From a virus, in the IMG/VR virus record IMGVR_UViG_3300031565_004156, positions 1 through 24,318 of that record: a stretch of DNA of 24,318 bases, one strand, 5' to 3'. How positions within the stretch are numbered: position 1 is the first letter of the stretch; the number at the start of each line of letters is the position of its first letter. Under the pieces are notes generated by a model. It had not been told where the DNA came from, made no database searches, and was given only the letters and a program-made list of their open reading frames with translations. Shown here one piece after another: positions 3,812 through 17,449 of this stretch. The translations under genes and the position numbers were made by a program.

Positions 3812-4648
3812 CTATGCCATCGCCGCGATAACCGCCCCGAGTTGTGCCCAATCCGTGCCGCCGCCACCACCTTGCTGCCCAATCTGTTGTGACATCAATC
3901 CCTGTGAACCCTGGATGACGGAGAGCAACTTGTTCCATCGTTGGTTGCGGAGTTGGTCGATCAACGATAGGCGCTGTCGCATCAACTCCTGCGTATACTC
4001 GCCGCGCATCCCGCCCTGCAAGCCAGCGGAAATGCTCGAATCGCCCAACCCCCTCTCGCCCAGGGCGGCCCCGCCTTCCAATAACATCCTCTGCATCTCC
4101 GGCTCCATCGCGTCCCGCGTACTCGCCATCTGCTGGTTGAGTTGGCGGGGGTCATACCCAAGACTCGGGTCAAAGGTGGGCTGCCAGCGACCATCCTTGA
4201 ACTCGAAGCCCAAGGAAGCCATCATCGCGTCAGCCGACGGGAAGCCGTACATCAACTGCGGCAGATAGGCCATCGCGTCGAGCATCGAATTGTTGTACAG
4301 GTCCCATTTGCCTTCCCATGCTCCAAAGCCATCCCCATAGAAGGGCGGCGTTTCATAGGATGCCTCCGCCGTTCCGCCGCCCTGAGTCGATGCTGCTTGC
4401 TGTGGTTGTGGTGCCGGTGGCGTCGGCGGTGCCTGCAAGGGCTGCGGCTGTGGCGGTAGTATCGGAAGGGCCGGGGGTGCCGTTGTGCTCCTCGGCGCGG
4501 GACTCCCCAGGGTAGGCGTACTGGTCGGTGTCCTCCGCGCCGTATTGCCGAGCCACCCAAGGTCGGGTGCTGGGGCCGCCCCCGTTGCCGCGCCCCGCGG
4601 GCGTCCGCCAGAGTAGGCGCTGAGAAGATCACGCATGTAGTTTGGCAT
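3812..4648 (-). CDS. Small internal virion protein-like (Pro-rich linker, helical C-terminus)
   Basis: 278 residues, ATG at 4648, two bases after the stop of the 66-aa gene. The first 13 residues could form a short amphipathic helix (MPNYMRDLLSAY). Residues 40-85 are a Pro/Gln/Thr/Ala-rich linker. Residues 100-160 contain several aromatic residues (PPFYGDGFGAWEGKWDLY). Residues 165-250 are helical and contain ERGLGDSSISAG followed by a Gln/Leu/Arg helix, then a Gly run and an Ala-rich end. A helical C-terminal half with an 'RGLxxSS' segment reminds me of the smallest internal/ejection protein of short-tailed phages. No catalytic motif. It is the first of three adjacent genes that I read as internal head proteins; that reading is inference from order. 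Confidence 0.55.
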   Translation of the reverse strand: MPNYMRDLLSAYSGGRPRGAATGAAPAPDLGWLGNTARRTPTSTPTLGSPAPRSTTAPPALPILPPQPQPLQAPPTPPAPQPQQAASTQGGGTAEASYETPPFYGDGFGAWEGKWDLYNNSMLDAMAYLPQLMYGFPSADAMMASLGFEFKDGRWQPTFDPSLGYDPRQLNQQMASTRDAMEPEMQRMLLEGGAALGERGLGDSSISAGLQGGMRGEYTQELMRQRLSLIDQLRNQRWNKLLSVIQGSQGLMSQQIGQQGGGGGTDWAQLGAVIAAMA

Positions 4649-4650
4649 TG

Positions 4651-4851
4651 CTAGTTTCCCTTCGACAGTTCGATACCGACGATGCTACCGTCTATGGCGT
4701 GCGCCTCCAGGCGATTCCGCTCCTCGCTGAACCATATCTCTCCAACCCGCTTCTTCTGTCCGAACCGTGGGTTGCGCGGCACGAGCGTCTCGCCCGTGAC
4801 GCGTATTTCCACGATGCCCTTCCCCGGCACGTAGCGCCTTACTATCCTCAT
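4651..4851 (-). CDS. Small hypothetical beta-rich protein (66 aa)
   Basis: 66 residues. The ATG at 4851 overlaps the TGA of the nozzle gene as ATGA, so it is probably translated by re-initiation. The protein alternates charged and hydrophobic residues (RIVRRYVPGKGIVEIRV, then VGEIWFSEERNRLEAHAID, then SIVGIELSKGN), suggesting five or six short strands in a small barrel or sandwich. It has no Cys, signal peptide or membrane segment. I do not recognise the family. Position between nozzle and internal proteins suggests a small virion or assembly component. Confidence 0.7.
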   Translation of the reverse strand: MRIVRRYVPGKGIVEIRVTGETLVPRNPRFGQKKRVGEIWFSEERNRLEAHAIDGSIVGIELSKGN

Positions 4852-9192: not shown

Positions 9193-9344
9193 TACTCATC
9201 CTCGTCTTTGCAACTCGGGCGCGTGCAAATCAACACCCCTCGCTGCATCACCATCTGATCCTTGGGCCAGCGCCGCCGACATATCCCGCAGATGTTCTCC
9301 CAGGCCTTCAACGGGCCGTTGCTTCCATAAGGTGATTTAGGCAT
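9192..9344 (-). CDS. 50-aa Cys-rich (zinc-ribbon-like) protein
   Basis: ATG at 9344 lies eight bases inside the end of the 138-aa gene; TAA at 9192-9194 overlaps the next ATG by one base. The 50 residues start MPKSPYGSNGPLKAWENICG and carry four cysteines as Cys19-x2-Cys22 (CGIC) and Cys40-x4-Cys45 (CTRPSC), 17 residues apart, with basic and hydrophobic residues between them (RRRWPKD, GVLI). Two such Cys pairs with a 'W.. / G.LIC' core are typical of very small phage zinc-ribbon proteins of unknown role found among structural genes. The frame fills exactly the space left between its two neighbours, which is the best evidence that it is real. The role is not known. Confidence 0.75.
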   Translation of the reverse strand: MPKSPYGSNGPLKAWENICGICRRRWPKDQMVMQRGVLICTRPSCKDEDE

Positions 9345-9753
9345 CTTCGTCCCCCGTCAGGGTCAGCCCCATCGTAAATCGGGTCGCATTGCCGTTGATG
9401 GTATAGACTGCCCGAATGAAAGGCGGCATGAAGTCTATGTACCGCTTCGCCTGTCCCGCGGTTTTGAGGGTGAAGTCCACCTGACCTGCTATCGGGCTGC
9501 GCCATGAGGTCGCGCCGGTTGACCAACACTTTACTACGGTGTACTGAGCCGTTGCGTCTGTTGGAGCGCCCTGGACCTTCACGGATAGGGCTGCGCCCGT
9601 CGCGGTGCCGCCGTTCGCGATGTAGAGGGAGACAATCCCTTTCTTCAGGCCGTACCGATTCTCCCACGAGTCCGAGTAGAACGTCTCACCCCCCGTCGAT
9701 GCGGCTGTGTAGAGGGCGTACTCCAAGAGGTCATGCTTGATCGTCTTTGGCAT
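9337..9753 (-). CDS. Beta-rich hypothetical virion protein (138 aa)
   Basis: 138 residues. The ATG at 9753 lies within the last 23 bases of the glycosyltransferase gene and has AGGAG 9 bases upstream (TAGGAGTGGAAAGCG). The sequence is a run of short strands: GGETFYSDSWENRYG, IVSLYIANGGTATGAALSVK, DATAQYTVVKCW, QVDFTLKTAGQAKRYIDFMP, IRAVYTINGNATRFTMGLTL. This looks like a small beta sandwich; proteins of this size and style between capsid and neck genes in other phages are often minor capsid, decoration or head-completion proteins. It has many Thr and Ser residues, so it could also be a substrate for the sugar cassette just upstream, which is speculation. No recognised family. Confidence 0.65.
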   Translation of the reverse strand: MPKTIKHDLLEYALYTAASTGGETFYSDSWENRYGLKKGIVSLYIANGGTATGAALSVKVQGAPTDATAQYTVVKCWSTGATSWRSPIAGQVDFTLKTAGQAKRYIDFMPPFIRAVYTINGNATRFTMGLTLTGDEDA

Positions 9754-12739
9754 CGCTTTCCACTCCTAGCCATCGAACACCGCACGCCTCCAACACGGCA
9801 TCGACTTGGTGACCTATGGTCATGTTTTCCCAAATCCACTCGCAACCGCGAGCGGCCTTCTCTTCGCGCTCCTCTTCGTGTTCCAGGTAGTACGTGAGGC
9901 TCTCGAACAACTCATCTTCGCCGTGCCCAACCCCGAACGTGCCGTCTGGGAAGGGGTGACCCTCCGGCAACCCCTCCGTCAGCACGAACGTTCCCGCCGC
10001 CATCCCCTCGGCAAGGCGCGACTCCACGTTGGGTTCGTCGGCAATGTGCAGGTTCAGCAGAATCCGGCACCTATGCACGAAGTCCGCCAGAACCGCCGGG
10101 TCGTAGGCATTGATGATCCCGACCTTCTGCTTGCCCGCCTCTTCTAGCCGCTCATTCAGACGATCCAGAATCCCCTTCCGGCGGTCGTTGATGACCCCGT
10201 AGAAGCCCACGTCGAACGACTTCTCCTTGGGTTGAGACTTATGCCAATGTCTCCGCGCTCCCCCGGCATAGACGCAGCGCACGTTCTTTGCACCCATGTC
10301 CTTGACGACCCGGACCATGTTGGGCGACGACACCACAATCCAGTCCGGTTTGCCGATGTGCGGTTCCAGCTTGCTCCTCACCGCCTTGGCGTGTTCGCTG
10401 TCGCCCTCAAGGTGCTCCGTGTGCCAGAGGATACGGACCTGTGGCTTCTTCGGGCGAGGAACGTTCAATATCTGCATCGACCCCGAACAGAGGAGCATGA
10501 TGTCCGCCTGCTCCGGCGTCCCCGGCGAAAACCCCATCGTGTCCGCCGCCTCCGAGACCGCCATCTCAAAGCGCCACGGCGCACCGTCCGGTGCGGGAAT
10601 GGCAATCGTCGGATGAGTCATGATGAGCGAGATGTCCTTCATCATGCCCTCGAAGCTCAATTTGTCGGCAATCCAGGCTCGATACTCCTGCCGATCATCG
10701 GCGGTTGGTTCATCCTGAAGCATCAACGCCGCTTCCTCAGTGGTGCGGAATATCCACTGGTCGTCGTAGAAGTCACGACTGGAGCGCCAGCAGTGAATCA
10801 CGGGCTTCAAGCCGCACGCCATCGCCTCAGCCAGGGCATAGTGGAAGCTCTCTTCGCGGCTCGCCGAGAAGAAGTAGTCCTTGTCGGCATACCAGGCGCA
10901 GAGATCGTTCGTCCACGGATAGAACTTCACGCAGTCCCGCAACCCCAACTCGTCTATCATCTGCTGAATGTACTGCCACTCCCGGCTTTCTTGAACATCC
11001 CCGGCGACATGCAGTTCCAGGTCATCCCTCGTTGCGCGTGCCTCGTACAGCGCCATGAGCGCGAGCGGAATGTTCTTCTTGTGGTTGATGTAGCCGGCCA
11101 TCGCGATCTTGTTGCCAGTCTTACCCTCGGACACAACCCACTTCGACACATCCACGCCGCCGGGGATGAGGTGGACCGAACACATATCCCTCAACCGAGG
11201 CACCTGCTGGAGCGCCATGTCGAGCAGGTACTTCGCCACGAAGATCACGTGGTCTACGCGCTCCCAGTTCACTTGCGGCAGGTATCCAGAATGGAGTTCG
11301 TATCCATGCACCCGTACCACCATCCGGCATTGCCGGGGGAGTTTCGTCGCCGCCACAAGGAGCGGACCAGCCCACTCGAACCAGCACACATCCGGTCCCC
11401 ACTCCATAACCCGCGGCACATCCTCCACGTTGTCGCAAATCGCTATCTGGTACCGCTTCTTCCAGAGGTCCAGAATCGGGTCAATGAACTTCCGGTCGTT
11501 CCGGTCGATGAAGACGGCGATCCGGCGGGTCGGTGGGTAGATGGGCACCGCCGTCTTGTGGACGGCATCAATACTGCCATCGGGCGCACCCGTCTCGTGC
11601 GCTTGCTTCAGAGCCGCGTTAGCCTCTTCGAGGTTGCCCTTTGCTACCCATGCCTGCGCCATCCTCAGCCACGGCAACCAGGAGTGCGTAGCGCCCTCAG
11701 TAAAGTGCGGGTCCATCTTGAGGGGTCGGCGCGCCGCCACCCCATACCACCAGATGGCCTCGTCGTAGCGGTGCATCTCGAAGGAGATGTCCCCGAGGAT
11801 AGCGTAGAGTTCTGCCCGTTCCCAGTTGTCCACGATATGGGTGTGAGCGACCTCCTTCGCCTTCTGGAGGTCCTCGTCCGTGCGGTTCTTCAGGGAGAGC
11901 AGCGCCCGACAGTAGAACACCGCGGCCTGGTATTGTTCGTGTGGGAAATTGCCCTTGGCGGCGAGGTACTTCTCGTAGATGGCCGCCGCCTCCGGGTATC
12001 GCTTCGCGTCGTTGAGCGTCCCCGCCGCGTAGAACATACTCCTGGTGTCGGACGGGTCTTTCTCGTACCGCGGCATGAGCCACTTCTCCGCCATCCGAAC
12101 CCGTTGCTCCGCCCGCTGCGCCCGCTCCGCCTCCGGTCGGTAACGGCGAGAGTGGAATATCGCCAGGTCCTGCGGCCCCGTTGCTCCCTGCTTGACGTTG
12201 ATGCAGAAGTTGTGCATCGGCGCATCAAAGCGAACGTGCCTGCGGTAGAGTCGCTCGCCGAGGAACCAACTCGTGAAGACTCCATCGTTGTCCAGCATCA
12301 CGAGGGGTATGGCGATAAGGTCCAACTCGGGTTGCACGGAGTTCAGAACGCTCCGAAGCATCTGGTGCGGCATGAATGTCCGGTCAGTCCACCGTCCACC
12401 CTCCCCCGGCATCTGCACCGTCATGCGCTCGGGCATCACTTCGTCGGCGTCGAGCTGGAGAATCCACTCCGAAGTGACCTGTTCGATAGCGACATTGCGC
12501 GCCTCGGCGAACCCGACCTCTTCCACGGAAAGCCCGTCGATGACCTTCCACTTCTCGCCGGACGCGTCCCAGGCTTTCAGCCACTCCTCGACGACCCGCT
12601 TCGTGTTGTCCGTCGTCGTCGGGTCTATCCCGATCACTATTTCGTTGACAAGGTTCCGCACACTCTCCATCGAGTGTATGATCGACTGCACCTCGTTGCG
12701 AGCGATCATACATAAAGCCAACGCCTTACCCCCACTCAT
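9731..12739 (-). CDS. Multimodular glycosyltransferase: GT2-TPR + GT-B (GT4-like) + third GT-like module
   Basis: 1002 residues, starting at the ATG that overlaps the preceding TGA (ATGA, 12736-12739); an in-frame ATG 18 bp further upstream is less likely. Residues 5-225 are a GT2-type domain: LCMIARNE, NEIVIGIDPTTTDNT, FAEARN, and the DxD metal/nucleotide-sugar site WILQLDADE (92-100). Residues about 235-385 are TPR-like helices (KRYPEAAAIYEKYLA, HRYDEAIWWYGVAARRP). Residues about 405-705 are a GT-B domain of GT4 type: HLIPGGVDVSKW (523-534), AMAGYINHKKNIPLALMAL, and the EESFHYALAEAMACGLKPV (629-647) E-x7-E-type donor site. Residues about 715-985 form a third Rossmann-like unit with FDVGFYGVINDRRKG and EPNVESRLAEGMAAGTFVL (902-920), like a CgeB/GT4 C-terminal half. 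GT2-TPR enzymes include the peptide S-glycosyltransferase SunS. The acceptor here is unknown; virion protein or host glycan are both possible. Confidence 0.85.
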   Translation of the reverse strand: MSGGKALALCMIARNEVQSIIHSMESVRNLVNEIVIGIDPTTTDNTKRVVEEWLKAWDASGEKWKVIDGLSVEEVGFAEARNVAIEQVTSEWILQLDADEVMPERMTVQMPGEGGRWTDRTFMPHQMLRSVLNSVQPELDLIAIPLVMLDNDGVFTSWFLGERLYRRHVRFDAPMHNFCINVKQGATGPQDLAIFHSRRYRPEAERAQRAEQRVRMAEKWLMPRYEKDPSDTRSMFYAAGTLNDAKRYPEAAAIYEKYLAAKGNFPHEQYQAAVFYCRALLSLKNRTDEDLQKAKEVAHTHIVDNWERAELYAILGDISFEMHRYDEAIWWYGVAARRPLKMDPHFTEGATHSWLPWLRMAQAWVAKGNLEEANAALKQAHETGAPDGSIDAVHKTAVPIYPPTRRIAVFIDRNDRKFIDPILDLWKKRYQIAICDNVEDVPRVMEWGPDVCWFEWAGPLLVAATKLPRQCRMVVRVHGYELHSGYLPQVNWERVDHVIFVAKYLLDMALQQVPRLRDMCSVHLIPGGVDVSKWVVSEGKTGNKIAMAGYINHKKNIPLALMALYEARATRDDLELHVAGDVQESREWQYIQQMIDELGLRDCVKFYPWTNDLCAWYADKDYFFSASREESFHYALAEAMACGLKPVIHCWRSSRDFYDDQWIFRTTEEAALMLQDEPTADDRQEYRAWIADKLSFEGMMKDISLIMTHPTIAIPAPDGAPWRFEMAVSEAADTMGFSPGTPEQADIMLLCSGSMQILNVPRPKKPQVRILWHTEHLEGDSEHAKAVRSKLEPHIGKPDWIVVSSPNMVRVVKDMGAKNVRCVYAGGARRHWHKSQPKEKSFDVGFYGVINDRRKGILDRLNERLEEAGKQKVGIINAYDPAVLADFVHRCRILLNLHIADEPNVESRLAEGMAAGTFVLTEGLPEGHPFPDGTFGVGHGEDELFESLTYYLEHEEEREEKAARGCEWIWENMTIGHQVDAVLEACGVRWLGVESDAKDDQA

Positions 12740-13314
12740 TGCCCCACCGCCTCCCATTCCTGTGTATTGATCTGTAGCCGGTGAACCTCAACCTGCGCCG
12801 ACCACTGGCCCCATCCCCAAGCGAGTCGTACCTCCTGCCACTGTGTTCTTGCGTTGGGCGGCCACGAACCCATCAGCATCAATAGTTTGATCGCCGCCAC
12901 ACGGTCACCGCGAGGGAAACGCATCATACAAAGATCGTACCCGTCGCGCCACGAAAGCCACTGATGCACCGGCGGCTTCTCCGGCATGAAGTACAGGTCA
13001 ACCGCCTCGGATTCAACCGAAGGCACCGCGATCATGCCCTTGGCGGACACCCGATGCAACTCTTTCATCGCCAGGTCGGGCCTATCCAGATGTTCGAGCA
13101 GATGGTTGCAATATACGAAGTCCAATTGACCATCCTCGAAGGGCAAATCCATGATGTCGCCCTCTATCAACATCTGATTGATGCACTCAATGCCTCCCGT
13201 TCGGTGGGGTGTCTCCCCCAGGAACTTCTCGACCAGGATGTTTGCGAAAGGAACGGGTGCGCCCCCGCTGCCGATGTCCGCTATCCACGGGCGCGGGACA
13301 CCATCAAGTTGCAT
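12736..13314 (-). CDS. SAM-dependent methyltransferase-like protein, second copy
   Basis: 192 residues from an ATG at 13314 with GGGAGG five bases upstream, overlapping the end of the first methyltransferase gene by 11 bases and ending in ATGA with the glycosyltransferase gene. PRPWIADIGSGGAPV (7-21) is the SAM-binding glycine loop; IMDLPFEDGQLDFVYCNHLL followed by EHL is the class I 'acidic loop then xxxxHxLEH' signature. GMIAVPSVESEAVDL follows as the next strand. It lacks the N- and C-terminal extensions of larger enzymes and is a little short for the fold. It aligns along its length with the gene just upstream. A sugar O- or N-methyltransferase is the natural guess beside a glycosyltransferase, but the substrate cannot be read from sequence. 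Confidence 0.75.
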   Translation of the reverse strand: MQLDGVPRPWIADIGSGGAPVPFANILVEKFLGETPHRTGGIECINQMLIEGDIMDLPFEDGQLDFVYCNHLLEHLDRPDLAMKELHRVSAKGMIAVPSVESEAVDLYFMPEKPPVHQWLSWRDGYDLCMMRFPRGDRVAAIKLLMLMGSWPPNARTQWQEVRLAWGWGQWSAQVEVHRLQINTQEWEAVGQ

Positions 13315-13990
13315 CCCTACCTCCCGTCCCAAACCCCGCGAGGTCCCATACCCATCCGGCCTCCAGATCGAACAACTCCTCGGGATTGTCGCCTGGATCG
13401 ATCTCGACTATCACAGCATGAAGGCCGCTCTTGAACCTATCCGCCTCGGGACCCCAGTGCATCCGAATCTCAACATAGGCATCTATCGCGTTCACCTTGT
13501 CCAGGTGCATATGCTCGACCAGCTTCTTCACACCATCCGGGTCAAGCGTGTCGTAGCGCATGAAGACTAGTGTTGCGGAATCCCGCCAGCACACCCACTT
13601 ATGTGACTTGAGTTTTTCCTTCCAAGCGACCTTGAAGAGCACTTCCTGGCGTATGTGTGGAACCACAACTGTTCCCGAGATACCCACGCGGTTCAGTTCG
13701 CTCAGTCCCGTAAGTGGATGCTCGACGTGTTCCAGTACGTGCGAACAGTAGATGTAGTCTATGCTCTTATCAAGGAACGGAAGCGCCTCTACGTCGGCTT
13801 CAATGAAGCGCCGGTTACCGATTATCAGAGGCATGTACTCGTCGTCGCCAGCCGGGATGCACTTCTTCATTCTCCGGTGCATCGTTTGGCCCGGATACTT
13901 GTCCACGATGATGTTGGCTAAAGCGAACGGGTCGTTCCCTCCGCCTACGTCCACGATCCACGGTTTCGGTAATCCTTCCAACTCTTTCAC
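13304..13990 (-). CDS. SAM-dependent methyltransferase-like protein, first copy
   Basis: 228 residues if started at the GTG at 13990, which has GGGAGG four bases upstream. An ATG at 14032 would extend it by 14 residues but lies inside an inverted repeat and adds Gly/Pro/His-rich sequence with no counterpart in the paralogue, so I prefer the GTG. LPKPWIVDVGGGNDPFALAN (7-26) is the SAM loop; FIEADVEALPFLDKSIDYIY then CSHVLEHVEHP is the class I Methyltransf_11-like signature; ISGTVVVPHIRQ is the following strand. The middle segment HKWVCWRDSATLVFM corresponds to HQWLSWRDGYDLCMM in the next gene. Probably modifies a sugar or a surface/virion component together with the downstream glycosyltransferase; this is inferred from neighbours. 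Confidence 0.78.
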   Translation of the reverse strand: MKELEGLPKPWIVDVGGGNDPFALANIIVDKYPGQTMHRRMKKCIPAGDDEYMPLIIGNRRFIEADVEALPFLDKSIDYIYCSHVLEHVEHPLTGLSELNRVGISGTVVVPHIRQEVLFKVAWKEKLKSHKWVCWRDSATLVFMRYDTLDPDGVKKLVEHMHLDKVNAIDAYVEIRMHWGPEADRFKSGLHAVIVEIDPGDNPEELFDLEAGWVWDLAGFGTGGRDAT

Positions 13991-13994
13991 GTTG

Positions 13995-14000
13995 CCTCCC
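13995..14000 (-). promoter_or_regulatory. Ribosome binding site deciding the GTG start of methyltransferase 1
   Basis: GGGAGG on the minus strand, four bases before a GTG codon at 13990. It favours this start over the ATG at 14032, which lies within the upstream hairpin and has no Shine-Dalgarno sequence of similar strength. Confidence 0.6.
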
Positions 14001-14008
14001 TTGTGAGG

Positions 14009-14032
14009 GTGGGGGGCCTTGCGACCCCCCAC
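14009..14032 (-). promoter_or_regulatory. GC-rich hairpin between beta-helix gene and methyltransferase gene
   Basis: An 8-bp perfect stem, GTGGGGGG with CCCCCCAC, encloses an 8-base loop. It sits between the stop of the beta-helix gene and the ribosome binding site of the first methyltransferase. No run of T follows on the minus strand, so it is not a canonical intrinsic terminator. It may protect or attenuate the transcript, or limit access to the next start. Confidence 0.6.
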
Positions 14033-14041
14033 ACATTCCCC

Positions 14042-15394
14042 TTACGCTACGGAGTCCACGTTGCTGCCAGCCATCAACGGTCGCCATCGACAAACGTAGT
14101 CGAGGTAGCCGGTGCCGACGTTATCGCCGTGGGTGTACTCAGAGATCGAGCCTTCGCGCACGACCTTATACATGGCGGTTGCGTTCAGACCAGTCTGGTG
14201 GAACGCTCCATGCACGGCCTGACCAGCATCGATGTCTGTGGCAGTGAGCTTGGCTACAAAGAGGCCGGTAGCTCCAGTCACACCCACCGAAATGGTAGCG
14301 GTGTCTCCCAGAAGGGTCGTCGTGCAGATGCCATAGACCTGGCACTCCACAAGGCCCTTAACGTGGAAGATCGGGTACGGGTCCTTGGTGCCAGCGTCAT
14401 TGCCGCGGCCGTTGGCGGTCTCGCCCTTGAACGCCGTGCAGTCGGCATAGGCAACCTGCCAACCCGATTCACCGCCCTCGAACGGGATACGGACACCCGC
14501 CTCGTCAGTCGAATCCGTCGCGGCAACGTAGTTCTCGATGCAGCCGCACAGTCCGGGGTCGATGGTGTCGTCCTTCGGCCCCGTGTATGCCGTGACGAAG
14601 CGGTTGAACTCAATCAAGCCGCCGGAGGCCACGGCGATGTAAACGCCGCGCCCCGCGGTCTTGTCGTCGTTCCTGCCGCGGTTGTTGGAGATGTAGATGT
14701 TGTGAGTCACGGTCCCCAGGACATTCACGCAGGCGGAACCGAAGTTCCCGCTGAAGGAGTTGCCCTGGATAACCGCGTCATCGCTGTCATGCACGGCGAT
14801 GCCGCTGCCAGCACCCACTACCGCGTTCTCCGCTATGAGGACGTTGCCAGTGACGGTCACTCGGTTTGCGGAAGCAACGTCGATACAGCGGATGAAGTCG
14901 TATGCGGTCGTCGAGAAGTTGAACTCGCAATTAGCAACGGTGCAGTCATCCCCGGTCACGAAGATGCCCTTCACGATTGCCGACACGCCAGCCACGAAGA
15001 CACAGTTCTCGATGGAACAGTCGTCTGCGGACATGGCGATAATCGACGTTGTGGCCGAGAGAGTGAAGGTCGGGCGGGCGCGGCCGGAACCAAGACCGAT
15101 GATCTTGACTCCCACAACGTCCACCACGCACGCAGTCGCACTCGCGATAGTCTCGGCGTGACCCTCCATGACGTAGATTACGTCACCGCTGGATGCGGTG
15201 CACATCCCAATAGCCTTGTCGAGGGTCGCGAATGCCCGCTTCGGGCTTCGCCCACCGTGATTGTCAGAACCCGATCCGCTGTCCACGAAGAAGACCTTTC
15301 CCGTGGACGGCACACCGGATGCACCGGCACCCGGCAGGACCGGCATTCCGGCGCTTGCGATTATGCTCTTGAAAGCCGTTATCCCGTTTCCCAT
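14042..15394 (-). CDS. Parallel beta-helix virion protein (tailspike- or decoration-like)
   Basis: 450 residues, ATG at 15394 with AAGGA nearby. Residues about 32-75 (GKVFFVDSGSGSDNHGG, FATLDKAIGMCTASSGDVIY) are the typical entry to a pectate-lyase-like right-handed beta-helix, followed by many short coils of the type DDCSIENCVFVAG, DDCTVANCEFNF, NRVTVTGNVLIAENA, DDAVIQGNSFSGN and HNIYISNNRG. From about residue 330 a different beta-rich domain begins, with DTATISVGVTGATGLFVAKL and TATDIDAG. Such helices occur in tailspikes and in head-surface proteins. Its place straight after the capsid gene, rather than after the nozzle, and the lack of a clear head-binding domain leave the location open. 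No Asp/Glu pair typical of a polysaccharide lyase could be assigned. Confidence 0.75.
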   Translation of the reverse strand: MGNGITAFKSIIASAGMPVLPGAGASGVPSTGKVFFVDSGSGSDNHGGRSPKRAFATLDKAIGMCTASSGDVIYVMEGHAETIASATACVVDVVGVKIIGLGSGRARPTFTLSATTSIIAMSADDCSIENCVFVAGVSAIVKGIFVTGDDCTVANCEFNFSTTAYDFIRCIDVASANRVTVTGNVLIAENAVVGAGSGIAVHDSDDAVIQGNSFSGNFGSACVNVLGTVTHNIYISNNRGRNDDKTAGRGVYIAVASGGLIEFNRFVTAYTGPKDDTIDPGLCGCIENYVAATDSTDEAGVRIPFEGGESGWQVAYADCTAFKGETANGRGNDAGTKDPYPIFHVKGLVECQVYGICTTTLLGDTATISVGVTGATGLFVAKLTATDIDAGQAVHGAFHQTGLNATAMYKVVREGSISEYTHGDNVGTGYLDYVCRWRPLMAGSNVDSVA

Positions 15395-15503
15395 GTCGTC
15401 CTTGCTACTTTCTCACCGCCTCCAGTAAGAGGTGCGGGGGACGCAGAGGTGGAGGCGGTGGGGGGTATCCCCGCGCCCTCCCGCACCAAATCGGGTCGCA
15501 TTC
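15395..15503. other. 109-bp non-coding gap after the capsid gene
   Basis: No gene fits here on either strand. It contains a 10-bp inverted repeat and a smaller GGGG-TAT-CCCC hairpin at 15462-15472. It is the only gap other than 17450-17735 that exceeds about 25 bp in the whole window. Confidence 0.7.
15414..15460 (-). terminator. Inverted repeat downstream of the major capsid gene (possible terminator or processing hairpin)
   Basis: CACCGCCTCC (15414-15423) and GGAGGCGGTG (15451-15460) are perfect inverted copies separated by 27 bases. The stem would form in the minus-strand transcript just after the capsid stop. There is no T-run, so efficient intrinsic termination is doubtful; partial termination, pausing or mRNA protection are equally possible. 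Confidence 0.4.
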
Positions 15504-16400
15504 CTACGCGCCCGCCGAACCATACACGCCACGCCAGTCCGACCACCCCGGTACGAACCGCATGGTAGCCTTGAACAGGGCATTGCCCGTGTCAAAGTCA
15601 TCGTCGCTCGAAAAGATCGGACGCTCCCGCCAGAACACCTTCATCTGGTGATCCGCCGGAGCCGCCATCAGGAACCAGGCGTCCTCGTCCGTGAGATAGT
15701 CCCACACCTTCACGGTGAGCTTATTGTGAAGGGGGTTGATCGCGTTCGATGCGTCCTCGGGGTCCTTCGCTGAGCCAACGAGCCTTTCGGCGTTGAATTG
15801 TTCGCCCGCAGGAACCACGAGGTAGCGCGGCGAGATCGCGAGCTTCGCGCCGGTGTCGTCCAGGAAGCCACGGAACTCAGTGACCGCGTTTTCCAACGTG
15901 GTCAGGTTGAGGTCCACGCCGCTGGACGGCATATTCGCGTCGGTCGATCCGGCGAGAAGTGGATGCGAGGAACTGAACAGCGCAACGGAGTCCGCTCCCG
16001 TGTAATCGCTCGAAAACCCGTTGTTGAAGACGTTAGCACAGACTGTCTCAAACGTCTTCTTGGCCGAACGAGCGAGCTTGCGCGACGCCGCCGCCATCTG
16101 CTTGTAGAGGTCGTCCGCCCACATGATGCGGGTAACGGCAAAACCCATCCCGTACCCAACGTGGGTGTACGTCTTTTTGTATCCCTGGGTGGGATCGTAG
16201 TAACTGATACCCGCACCCTCGTCGAGTTCGGGCATCGTGGCGAGTCCGCCAATGGTCAAATCATCTTCGGTGTGCTTACCCGATGTAAGCACGTTGAAGA
16301 TGTTCTCAGCCTGGAACGGAGCCAACTTGAGGTCGGTAGAGAATACCTTGCTCAGTCCAGGTTCGATCAACTCCGAAAATGCGCCAGTGGTGCTTGGCAT
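15504..16400 (-). CDS. Major capsid protein (Mu gpT-like, HK97-fold)
   Basis: 298 residues. The ATG at 16400 has the strongest ribosome binding site in the window (GAGGAG, 7 nt spacing). Features that fit the Mu gpT-like group of HK97-fold capsid proteins: a conserved N-terminal segment (GAFSELIEPGLSKVFSTDL), the FAVTRIMWADDLYKQM helix, the ALFSSSHPLLAGS segment in the middle, LAISPRYLVVPAGEQFNAER, and a C-terminal half with DEDAWFLMAAPADHQMKVFW and WRGVYGSAGA at the very end. Length about 300 is normal for the family. It follows a scaffold and two decoration-like genes, the usual order. It forms the icosahedral shell; no protease domain or delta domain extension is visible, so maturation by cleavage cannot be inferred. 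Confidence 0.85.
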   Translation of the reverse strand: MPSTTGAFSELIEPGLSKVFSTDLKLAPFQAENIFNVLTSGKHTEDDLTIGGLATMPELDEGAGISYYDPTQGYKKTYTHVGYGMGFAVTRIMWADDLYKQMAAASRKLARSAKKTFETVCANVFNNGFSSDYTGADSVALFSSSHPLLAGSTDANMPSSGVDLNLTTLENAVTEFRGFLDDTGAKLAISPRYLVVPAGEQFNAERLVGSAKDPEDASNAINPLHNKLTVKVWDYLTDEDAWFLMAAPADHQMKVFWRERPIFSSDDDFDTGNALFKATMRFVPGWSDWRGVYGSAGA

Positions 16401-16407
16401 ACTCTAT

Positions 16408-16413
16408 CTCCTC
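16408..16413 (-). promoter_or_regulatory. Strong ribosome binding site of the capsid gene
   Basis: GAGGAG on the minus strand, seven bases upstream of the capsid ATG, touching the stop codon of the preceding gene. It indicates high translation of the capsid protein independent of upstream ribosomes. Confidence 0.75.
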
Positions 16414-16934
16414 TAAGCTTCCTGCGTTGTCTGGTACTGAGAAAAGGTCGGGTCGATGGTAACGTGCCATTTGCGACCCGCCCCAGTTACATCCTCACCG
16501 CCTCCCTCGTCTTGGTCCCAACCCACGATGCGTAGAGTGGGCACCGCTGCCGCCGTGTCGATCCGGCAATATGAAGCCGTCGGTATCTCGACATCAGCAT
16601 GGAGGTTCATAAAGCCGACAGTGGCAGTCCGACGGGCCATCGTCATCGTGGATGGGGCGCCAACTGCCTCGAAGACGGCCCCGATTACAAACGGGGTGAT
16701 TTCCAGATACTCCGTCTTCTGGGTAGCACTCGTCGTCTTATTGTGGAGCGCCACCCCATAGAGTGACGTGTCCGCTTCCGCAACTACTCGAACGGAACCG
16801 GATGTGGCGGACAGGTTCACGATGGTTCCCTTGTAAATCGTCTGCGAAATCTTTACAGGGAGCCGTTCTACTTCCATATGTCCGCCGCCAAAGTTATAGA
16901 GCCAGCGGAAACCTCTGTTGATCTCCGCGGCCAT
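16413..16934 (-). CDS. Capsid decoration-like protein, second tandem copy
   Basis: 173 residues. The start is the ATG at 16934 that shares a base with the TAA of the paralogue (TAATG); an in-frame ATG further upstream would add 21 residues lying inside the paralogue's 3' end and lacking any counterpart in it. Sequence is beta-rich: RGFRWLYNFGGGHMEVERLP, VKISQTIYKGTIVNLS, SGSVRVVAEADTSLYGVALH, ITPFVIGAVFEAVGAPSTMT, TLRIVGWDQ, GAGRKWHVTI. The 'KISQTIYkGT...G.V....adtSLyGVAL' pattern resembles capsid-stabilising proteins found next to capsid genes in other phages (DUF2190-like), a recalled resemblance. It is encoded 12 bp before the capsid gene, so co-expression with the shell is expected. Confidence 0.65.
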   Translation of the reverse strand: MAAEINRGFRWLYNFGGGHMEVERLPVKISQTIYKGTIVNLSATSGSVRVVAEADTSLYGVALHNKTTSATQKTEYLEITPFVIGAVFEAVGAPSTMTMARRTATVGFMNLHADVEIPTASYCRIDTAAAVPTLRIVGWDQDEGGGEDVTGAGRKWHVTIDPTFSQYQTTQEA

Positions 16935-17449
16935 TATGTCCCCACAGACTGCGTTGTCTGGACCTGGGAAGCGTCGGCAGCAATGGTGACGCGCCACTTA
17001 CGGCCCGCACCAGTCACGCCTTCCGTCCGCTTATCCCAGCCCACGATTCGCAGAGTGAGTGTTGCCGCGCCGGTGTCAATCCTCGAATATCCAGCCGTCG
17101 GCAACTTGATGTCGGCGTGGAGATTCCGGTACGCAGCGGCGGGGTTGTTGGCTGCCATAGTCATCGTCGATTTTGCACCCACTGCCTCGAAAACCGCGCC
17201 AACGGCGAACGGGACGAGTTGAATCGTCTCCGTCTTCTGAGAGGAGCTGGTGGTCTTCGAGTGGAGGGCTACGCCGAATAGAGAGGTATCCGCGTCGGCT
17301 ACTATCCGCACGGAACCAGATGTATCAGAGAGACACAGGACGGTTCCCCGGTAAATGGTCTGTGAAATCTTGACCGGGAGTTCCATGACCTGCATCTGGC
17401 CGCCGCGCATATTGTAGAGCCACTGGAAACCCCTGAGTGGTTCTGCCAT
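16934..17449 (-). CDS. Capsid decoration-like protein, first tandem copy
   Basis: 171 residues, ATG at 17449 after a 286-bp non-coding gap. The Shine-Dalgarno is weak (AAGGGAAAAGCTC before ATG). Reads as RGFQWLYNMRGGQMQVMELP, VKISQTIYRGTVLCLS, SGSVRIVADADTSLFGVALH, LVPFAVGAVFEAVGAKSTMT, TLRIVGWDK, GAGRKWRVTI, in register with the next gene for nearly its whole length; the copies differ most at the ends and around residue 110. All-beta, no membrane segment, small and hydrophilic. Two related outer proteins could occupy different sites on the capsid lattice or one could be for the vertex. That is inference. Confidence 0.65.
   Translation of the reverse strand: MAEPLRGFQWLYNMRGGQMQVMELPVKISQTIYRGTVLCLSDTSGSVRIVADADTSLFGVALHSKTTSSSQKTETIQLVPFAVGAVFEAVGAKSTMTMAANNPAAAYRNLHADIKLPTAGYSRIDTGAATLTLRIVGWDKRTEGVTGAGRKWRVTIAADASQVQTTQSVGT

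Follow-up and report, generated by a model that had tools for sequence, protein, structure and literature searches.

The 24,318-base virus record IMGVR_UViG_3300031565_004156 from IMG/VR, analysed over its complete length (the window), carries within its head genes two methyltransferase genes, MT1 and MT2, followed by a gene for a three-module glycosyltransferase (GT). The record is an incomplete fragment of a podovirus-like phage, in which one gene continues past the left end. On balance we favour the reading that MT1-MT2-GT entered the genome by insertion, is transcribed late and serves to glycosylate a virion protein, with methylation included. That the first GT module glycosylates protein is very probable; that the methyl groups sit on the glycan rather than on the protein is likely, and that the acceptor is a virion protein is probable, if slightly less so. 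Virion glycosylation has been documented in few cultured phages only. The SunS/SgtA-type GT-A plus TPR family, which recurs in uncultured phages next to genes for capsid, adaptor, portal, tail and collagen-like proteins, is a sequence handle for predicting sugar-coated particles, and co-expression offers a direct test of which protein is the acceptor. According to reports, glycans on the particle influence the binding of antibodies; effects on stability and adsorption are possible as well.

The first module of the GT shows the type of enzyme most clearly. Its GT2/GT-A domain (residues 10-104) is followed by TPR repeats, and in a search by sequence alone GmaR and SunS ranked first. An AlphaFold2 model computed on an 80-row alignment, built from fetched loci, had a mean pLDDT of 93.9, and its six best matches in a Foldseek search of the PDB were all SunS/ThuS peptide S-glycosyltransferases (2.5e-15 to 2.5e-14), the next family following at 3.3e-7. 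TM-scores to these proteins are moderate (∼0.6) and the root-mean-square deviation over full-length pairs is high, as expected because there are two domains with a different hinge. As modelled, module 1 combines the GT-A domain with the TPR-like helical acceptor arm that marks SunS/SgtA-type enzymes. Among viral models, the best matches were annotated glycosyltransferases from giant viruses and uncultured phages. Among the acidic metal/UDP-binding residues and the conserved His, D97 and H176 are invariant in the 80 sequences and D39 and D99 are conserved in at least 90%; all four are intact in the window.

Relatives of module 1 in bacteria and in characterised systems would, by analogy, all point to polypeptide acceptors. 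We ranked 80 bacterial loci by similarity to the window module 1 and scored as collagen-like any open reading frame (ORF) with at least 10 Gly-X-Y triplets; such an ORF lies within 8 kb of the GT gene in 38 of the 80, and within 300 bp in 27. Twenty of the host genomes, 3.4-8.3 Mb in size, have 1-136 collagen-profile matches each, with several matches per gene, so that the adjacency looks, as judged from these counts, far above random placement. Clostridioides difficile SgtA, a protein of 358 amino acids with GT-A and TPR parts encoded just upstream of bclA3, attaches beta-O-linked N-acetylglucosamine (GlcNAc) to Thr of collagen repeats in vitro (PMC7157674). The primer used for its cloning gives a protein start of MITISLCMI (PMC7157674), which is the start of the module 1 family, and this together with the domain layout suggests that SgtA is a member. 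GmaR transfers GlcNAc onto flagellin (PMC9638930).

The remainder of the cassette is equally intact. Module 2 retains the GT4 E-x7-E motif (aa 630-638) and is homologous to the second half of a GT from another phage locus, L041 (5e-29), and module 3 to the C-terminal module of the GT of locus L048 (2.7e-22). MT1 and MT2 are paralogues with 36% identity; MT1 may truly start downstream of its GTG, near a conserved ELEGLPKPW. No relative of MT1 was found among cultured phages, MT1-family relatives co-occur with glycosyltransferases in bacterial polysaccharide clusters, and a profile of MT1 and MT2 alone gave uninformative patterns. All domains of the cassette score well beyond chance: two Methyltransf_11 (1.7e-9 and 4.2e-11), GT2 (4e-11), GT4 (6e-15) and CgeB-like GT-B (1e-17). 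Because GC-rich DNA also yields long antisense ORFs, the reality of the genes is taken from these matches and from intact frames in other contigs, not from length. Two such antisense ORFs, of 827 aa opposite the GT (10232-12715, plus strand) and of 521 aa opposite the gene for a beta-helix protein next to the cassette (14003-15568, plus strand), are probably a by-product of codon bias.

The first-pass annotation had the gene coordinates and the strand right, every gene that it named being located on the minus strand, and its co-directional run of two methyltransferases and a three-module GT inside the late head region is borne out by domains and gene order. On the minus strand the main genes run from a dehydrogenase-like gene through TerL, an SU10-type portal (PF23899), a scaffold-like gene, tandem genes for decoration-like proteins of 169 and 171 aa and the capsid gene to the beta-helix gene, MT1, MT2, GT, a gene for a 138-aa protein, two SU10-type adaptors (PF24175) and a 939-aa nozzle-like protein (Table 1). 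MT1 and MT2 overlap by 11 nt and MT2 and GT by 4 nt, as first described; MT1 begins 9 nt past the beta-helix stop, and 23 nt at the 3' end of the GT are shared with the 138-aa gene. The ATG codons of MT2 (at 13314) and GT (at 12739) are preceded by purine-rich stretches resembling ribosome-binding sites, with GGGAGG upstream of MT2. Since scans of the window for promoters and terminators stayed at chance level, late co-transcription is proposed from gene order and overlaps.

Table 1. Positions of the cassette, its modules and the genes discussed with it
Feature	Position	Strand	Basis
GT, three-module glycosyltransferase, 1002 aa	9731..12739	-	Pfam/PHROG/NCBIfam
GT module 1, aa 1-390, GT-A (GT2) + TPR, peptide-glycosyltransferase type	11570..12739	-	model, PDB matches, conserved columns
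GT module 2, ~aa 405-700, GT4-type GT-B	10640..11527	-	PF13692 5.8e-15, PF00534 2e-14
GT module 3, ~aa 720-1002, CgeB-like GT-B (Glyco_trans_1_2)	9734..10582	-	PF13524 1.2e-17
MT2, class I S-adenosylmethionine-dependent methyltransferase, 192 aa	12736..13314	-	Methyltransf_11 4.2e-11
MT1, class I S-adenosylmethionine-dependent methyltransferase, 242 aa, GTG start	13304..14032	-	Methyltransf_11 1.7e-9
138-aa protein, flanking virion-type gene, candidate acceptor	9337..9753	-	weak profile match
Parallel beta-helix protein, 450 aa, flanking head gene, candidate acceptor	14042..15394	-	homologues downstream of major capsid protein gene; fold
Major capsid protein, upstream flank, candidate acceptor	15504..16400	-	PF25209 2.8e-18, phrog_371 4.8e-23
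UDP-glucose/GDP-mannose dehydrogenase-like, 272 aa	23253..24071	-	PF03721 + PF00984 only

Decay or loss of function of the inserted cassette is very improbable. The GC content at third codon positions of MT1 and MT2 (0.68-0.70) is slightly below that of most neighbours (0.74-0.79), and the dehydrogenase gene is truncated, both of which would fit decay; against it stand three long intact frames with their catalytic motifs kept, and a contig from another metagenome that encodes MT proteins identical to those of the window together with the first 328 residues of the GT.

Comparison with related phages suggests, from gene content, that MT1-MT2-GT (9731-14032) most likely arrived by insertion, separating two genes of virion type that elsewhere lie close together. 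Besides two near-identical overlapping contigs from other metagenomes, one of which (L005) reaches about 4 kb further on the terminase side, we compared the beta-helix neighbourhoods of nine viral-contig relatives and one phage record. In the nine, found by profile scan, a recognised capsid gene always lies upstream and the window's methyltransferases and GT are in none (a profile of the nine sequences proved too variable for scanning). The phage record, MW202647 (ctMEh928), a metagenome-assembled phage, has a 32%-identical beta-helix protein directly past its capsid gene and no such methyltransferases or GT. The 138-aa protein was the best of 23 window proteins against a profile of small post-beta-helix proteins from five relatives, a weak match (E 2.6e-4). 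We consider the cassette an insertion because relatives keep the beta-helix gene and this related small gene after the capsid gene without it. The beta-helix protein, which the first-pass annotation had counted among the members of a sugar cassette, is instead a conserved neighbour of the capsid gene; a role as a pathway enzyme was rejected, as its fold matches (residues 30-290) are generic and the gene is conserved without the cassette.

At its C terminus the window's beta-helix protein is longer than these relatives by about 160 aa (14042-14533, minus strand). This addition has no relative in the phage collection and gave no reliable model; it could be an acceptor or a binding domain peculiar to the lineage that bears the cassette. 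The same slot has received other genes. In a distant relative (L019), a different GT-A glycosyltransferase of 261 aa (10902-11684, PF00535 1.4e-3) overlaps the beta-helix stop codon and is an independent GT insertion. In another (L011), HNH-endonuclease-like frames lie between the capsid and beta-helix genes (4160-4761), which suggests that the slot also attracts homing elements.

The placement of such enzymes among virion genes recurs in other phages. In 42 phage loci with a near-complete homologue of module 1, not all of them independent, a profile-verified virion or packaging gene lies within about four genes of the homologue in 18, an association that is strong and not universal. The closest parallel to the window is L048 (IMGVR_UViG_3300009128_000133), where portal, scaffold-like, decoration-like and window-type major capsid protein (1.2e-19) genes are directly followed by a GT of 776 aa that consists of modules 1 and 3. 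In L041 a capsid gene (phrog_1005) is separated by three genes from that of a 763-aa protein in which modules 1 and 2 are fused, with more glycosyltransferases and a methyltransferase further on. The GT lies one gene past a capsid gene (phrog_9953) and directly ahead of an adaptor gene in L049, one gene past an SU10-type capsid gene in L083 (SU10_MCP), next to or near a capsid gene in L112, and one gene ahead of an adaptor in L057; the capsid genes concerned belong to different families. It stands between TerL and portal genes in L065 and L069, in a terminase/portal-type position with one side verified in L051, L089 and L092, beside tail genes in L042, L044, L046, L080 and L082, near a portal in L045 and near a terminase in L073. 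The first-pass view that podoviruses normally have nothing or a minor head gene at this place is not supported, as other phages have glycosyltransferases in similar slots.

Collagen-like ORFs occur in 14 of 79 phage loci, in 11 of them within 300 bp. Downstream of the GT of L048 come two small genes, a GPT-repeat collagen-like gene (10838-11605) and a second GT-A/TPR gene. This collagen-like gene between two GT-A/TPR genes, downstream of a capsid gene, resembles the BclA/SgtA arrangement of spores, and makes L048 a good test system for phage collagen glycosylation.

Homologues of the methyltransferases led to four further loci (L033-L036), where methyltransferases, a CgeB-like GT and more glycosyltransferases lie past portal/connector genes or, in L033, ahead of a head-completion protein (PF05521). 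Two of these have a collagen-like gene directly past a portal-like gene, with large methyltransferase/GT cassettes (L036, 5665-6588, with a weak CBM5/12 match; L035, 1611-2474). Methyltransferases are paired with glycosyltransferases in L033-L036, L041 and L047, and in bacteria as well. This repeated pairing, with the tight 11- and 4-nt overlaps, makes it improbable that the window holds two adjacent, unlinked modification units in which MT1 and MT2 directly methylate a virion protein or another target. Such a view draws on the generic nature of Methyltransf_11 enzymes, whose methyl-sugar specificity is unreadable from sequence; curated matches of MT1 and MT2 are weak, one being to a mycofactocin oligosaccharide methyltransferase (9e-5).

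In the mechanism that we infer for the cassette, the TPR arm of module 1 would dock a phage polypeptide and the GT-A domain would transfer the first sugar to a side chain, most likely Thr or Ser, with Cys possible, on the model of SgtA, GmaR and SunS. After that, modules 2 and 3 may each add one sugar, sequentially, and MT1 and MT2 would O-methylate the glycan, probably as a cap. Glycosylation would be late and cytoplasmic, and the acceptor most likely a co-made virion protein: the capsid, decoration, beta-helix or 138-aa protein, or a fibre encoded beyond the fragment.

Alternatively, the cassette may remodel a host-surface polysaccharide (O-antigen or capsule) late in infection, for example blocking adsorption of released phage or superinfection, its GT modules and methyltransferases deriving from host polysaccharide clusters. 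Homologues of the methyltransferases do occur in plasmid-borne clusters of lipopolysaccharide/exopolysaccharide type, GT4 and CgeB-like modules are common in polysaccharide clusters, and the glycosyltransferases and UDP-glucose dehydrogenases of pelagimyophages have been interpreted by some authors as host-surface remodelling (PMC7029224). We nevertheless consider it unlikely, as module 1 carries the GT-A and TPR fold of peptide glycosyltransferases, a flippase, polymerase, lipid-carrier transferase or membrane GT is missing from the window, relatives tend to lie beside structural or collagen-like genes, and a late head operon is an odd place for a change expected to act early.

The dehydrogenase-like gene before TerL bears on another possible acceptor, the phage DNA, in which a glycosylated, hypermodified base would protect against restriction and the dehydrogenase would supply a uronic acid. 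Its NAD-binding and central domains are present, with GxGYVG, the catalytic Cys in GGKCFPKD (GGxCFPKD) and the KY-x-x-N lysine retained. The protein ends soon after GGKCFPKD and has no C-terminal UDP-binding domain, full-length phage homologues being 429-436 aa long, and its activity is doubtful for that reason. An acidic sugar made by this enzyme, which the first-pass annotation had considered possible, was accordingly dropped as a core claim: the gene is truncated and lies 9 kb from the cassette. Bacillus phage SP-15, whose DNA is hypermodified, encodes a relative of this dehydrogenase close to its replication genes, with genes for a uridylyltransferase and a GT adjoining. A DNA acceptor is quite improbable here all the same, for neither the window nor the additional 4 kb upstream in L005 showed recognisable base-modification genes, the GT lies in the virion region and not with replication genes, module 1 has a peptide-GT-like fold, and the dehydrogenase lacks its UDP-binding part.

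Several observations weigh against glycosylation of a virion protein by this cassette. The acceptor is still at candidate level, and the relatives of the methyltransferases are located mainly in bacterial polysaccharide clusters. Module 1 is a divergent family member with about 25% identity to others, and at 29.7 bits (2.9e-7) it falls well short of the 350-bit curated cut-off for SunS, TIGR04195; because of this we term it SunS-like in build only, not a SunS. Collagen-linked relatives (L045 and L120, 64-68 bits) are under this cut-off too. The collagen link was measured on loci, chiefly of Bacillota, found by a profile to which one collagen-linked Priestia sequence had contributed, and the proteins of the window, an incomplete fragment, include no collagen-like or GPT-repeat protein (longest Gly-X-Y run 3). 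Cassettes lying in unrelated early or host-takeover regions of relatives were among the signs by which the first-pass annotation would have given up its proposal, and here the outcome is divided, since in the other 24 of the 42 phage loci profiles verified no structural gene over a distance of about four genes.

Scans of viral and bacterial collections with single proteins (GT, capsid, terminase) returned only the two near-identical contigs. One contig, IMGVR_UViG_3300031539_004072, differs from the window at 40 nucleotides over 12.5 kb, 39 of them within one decoration-like gene (16934-17449; tandem paralogue 16413-16922), with only 3 amino-acid changes. This clustering suggests either recombination or gene conversion between the tandem paralogues, or a chimeric assembly.

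With these points in mind, one may speculate, at a chance we would put short of even, that GT-A/TPR peptide glycosyltransferases are a widespread and largely unrecognised class in phages, present in the virion modules of unrelated tailed phages and often with collagen-like fibres. The window would then hold a version in which a trisaccharide synthase in one polypeptide and two methyl-capping enzymes decorate a protein of the head or neck without collagen-like character.

Phage precedent comes from actinobacteriophages, as first suggested, and the Corndog-type phages are a real case. Cluster O mycobacteriophages encode an O-methyltransferase and three glycosyltransferases between portal and protease (PMC4351075), and glycosylated capsid and tail-tube proteins are reported for Corndog-type phages in the passage of PMC12363180 that cites Freeman 2023. 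As in the window, methyltransferase and GT genes follow one another without a break among the virion genes. However, the enzymes of the Corndog relatives Firecracker and Catdawg did not match the window's methyltransferases or GT by blastp or profile; theirs are a TylF-type O-methyltransferase and GT2-like and GT25 proteins encoded by separate genes, which suggests the same way of working with unrelated parts. The SgtA/BclA3 system of the C. difficile exosporium and its Priestia and Paenibacillus relatives share with the window a single GT-A plus TPR glycosyltransferase adjoining a structural protein gene, and those of Priestia have GT and methyltransferase genes nearby. There, however, the acceptor is a collagen-like protein, whereas in the window no adjacent acceptor with GXT repeats was found and the GT is fused to two more modules. 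The SunS/ThuS glycocin S-glycosyltransferases, SunS being from prophage SPbeta, are, among solved structures, closest in fold across the GT-A and helical-repeat parts, but they modify a small bacteriocin peptide, and the window protein is under their NCBIfam cut-off. Chlorovirus PBCV-1, compared by its organisation as described in PMC7019647, offers in A064R a virus-encoded GT-GT fusion and methyl capping of a capsid glycan, although in a eukaryotic virus, on an N-linked glycan and with the methyltransferase inside the fusion. Glycosylation of virions by phage enzymes is known; what our findings add is that the enzymes here are unrelated, that a SunS/SgtA-type module heads a fusion of three GT modules, that the methyltransferases come as a pair, and that the carrier is a podovirus-like phage whose portal and neck genes are of SU10 type.
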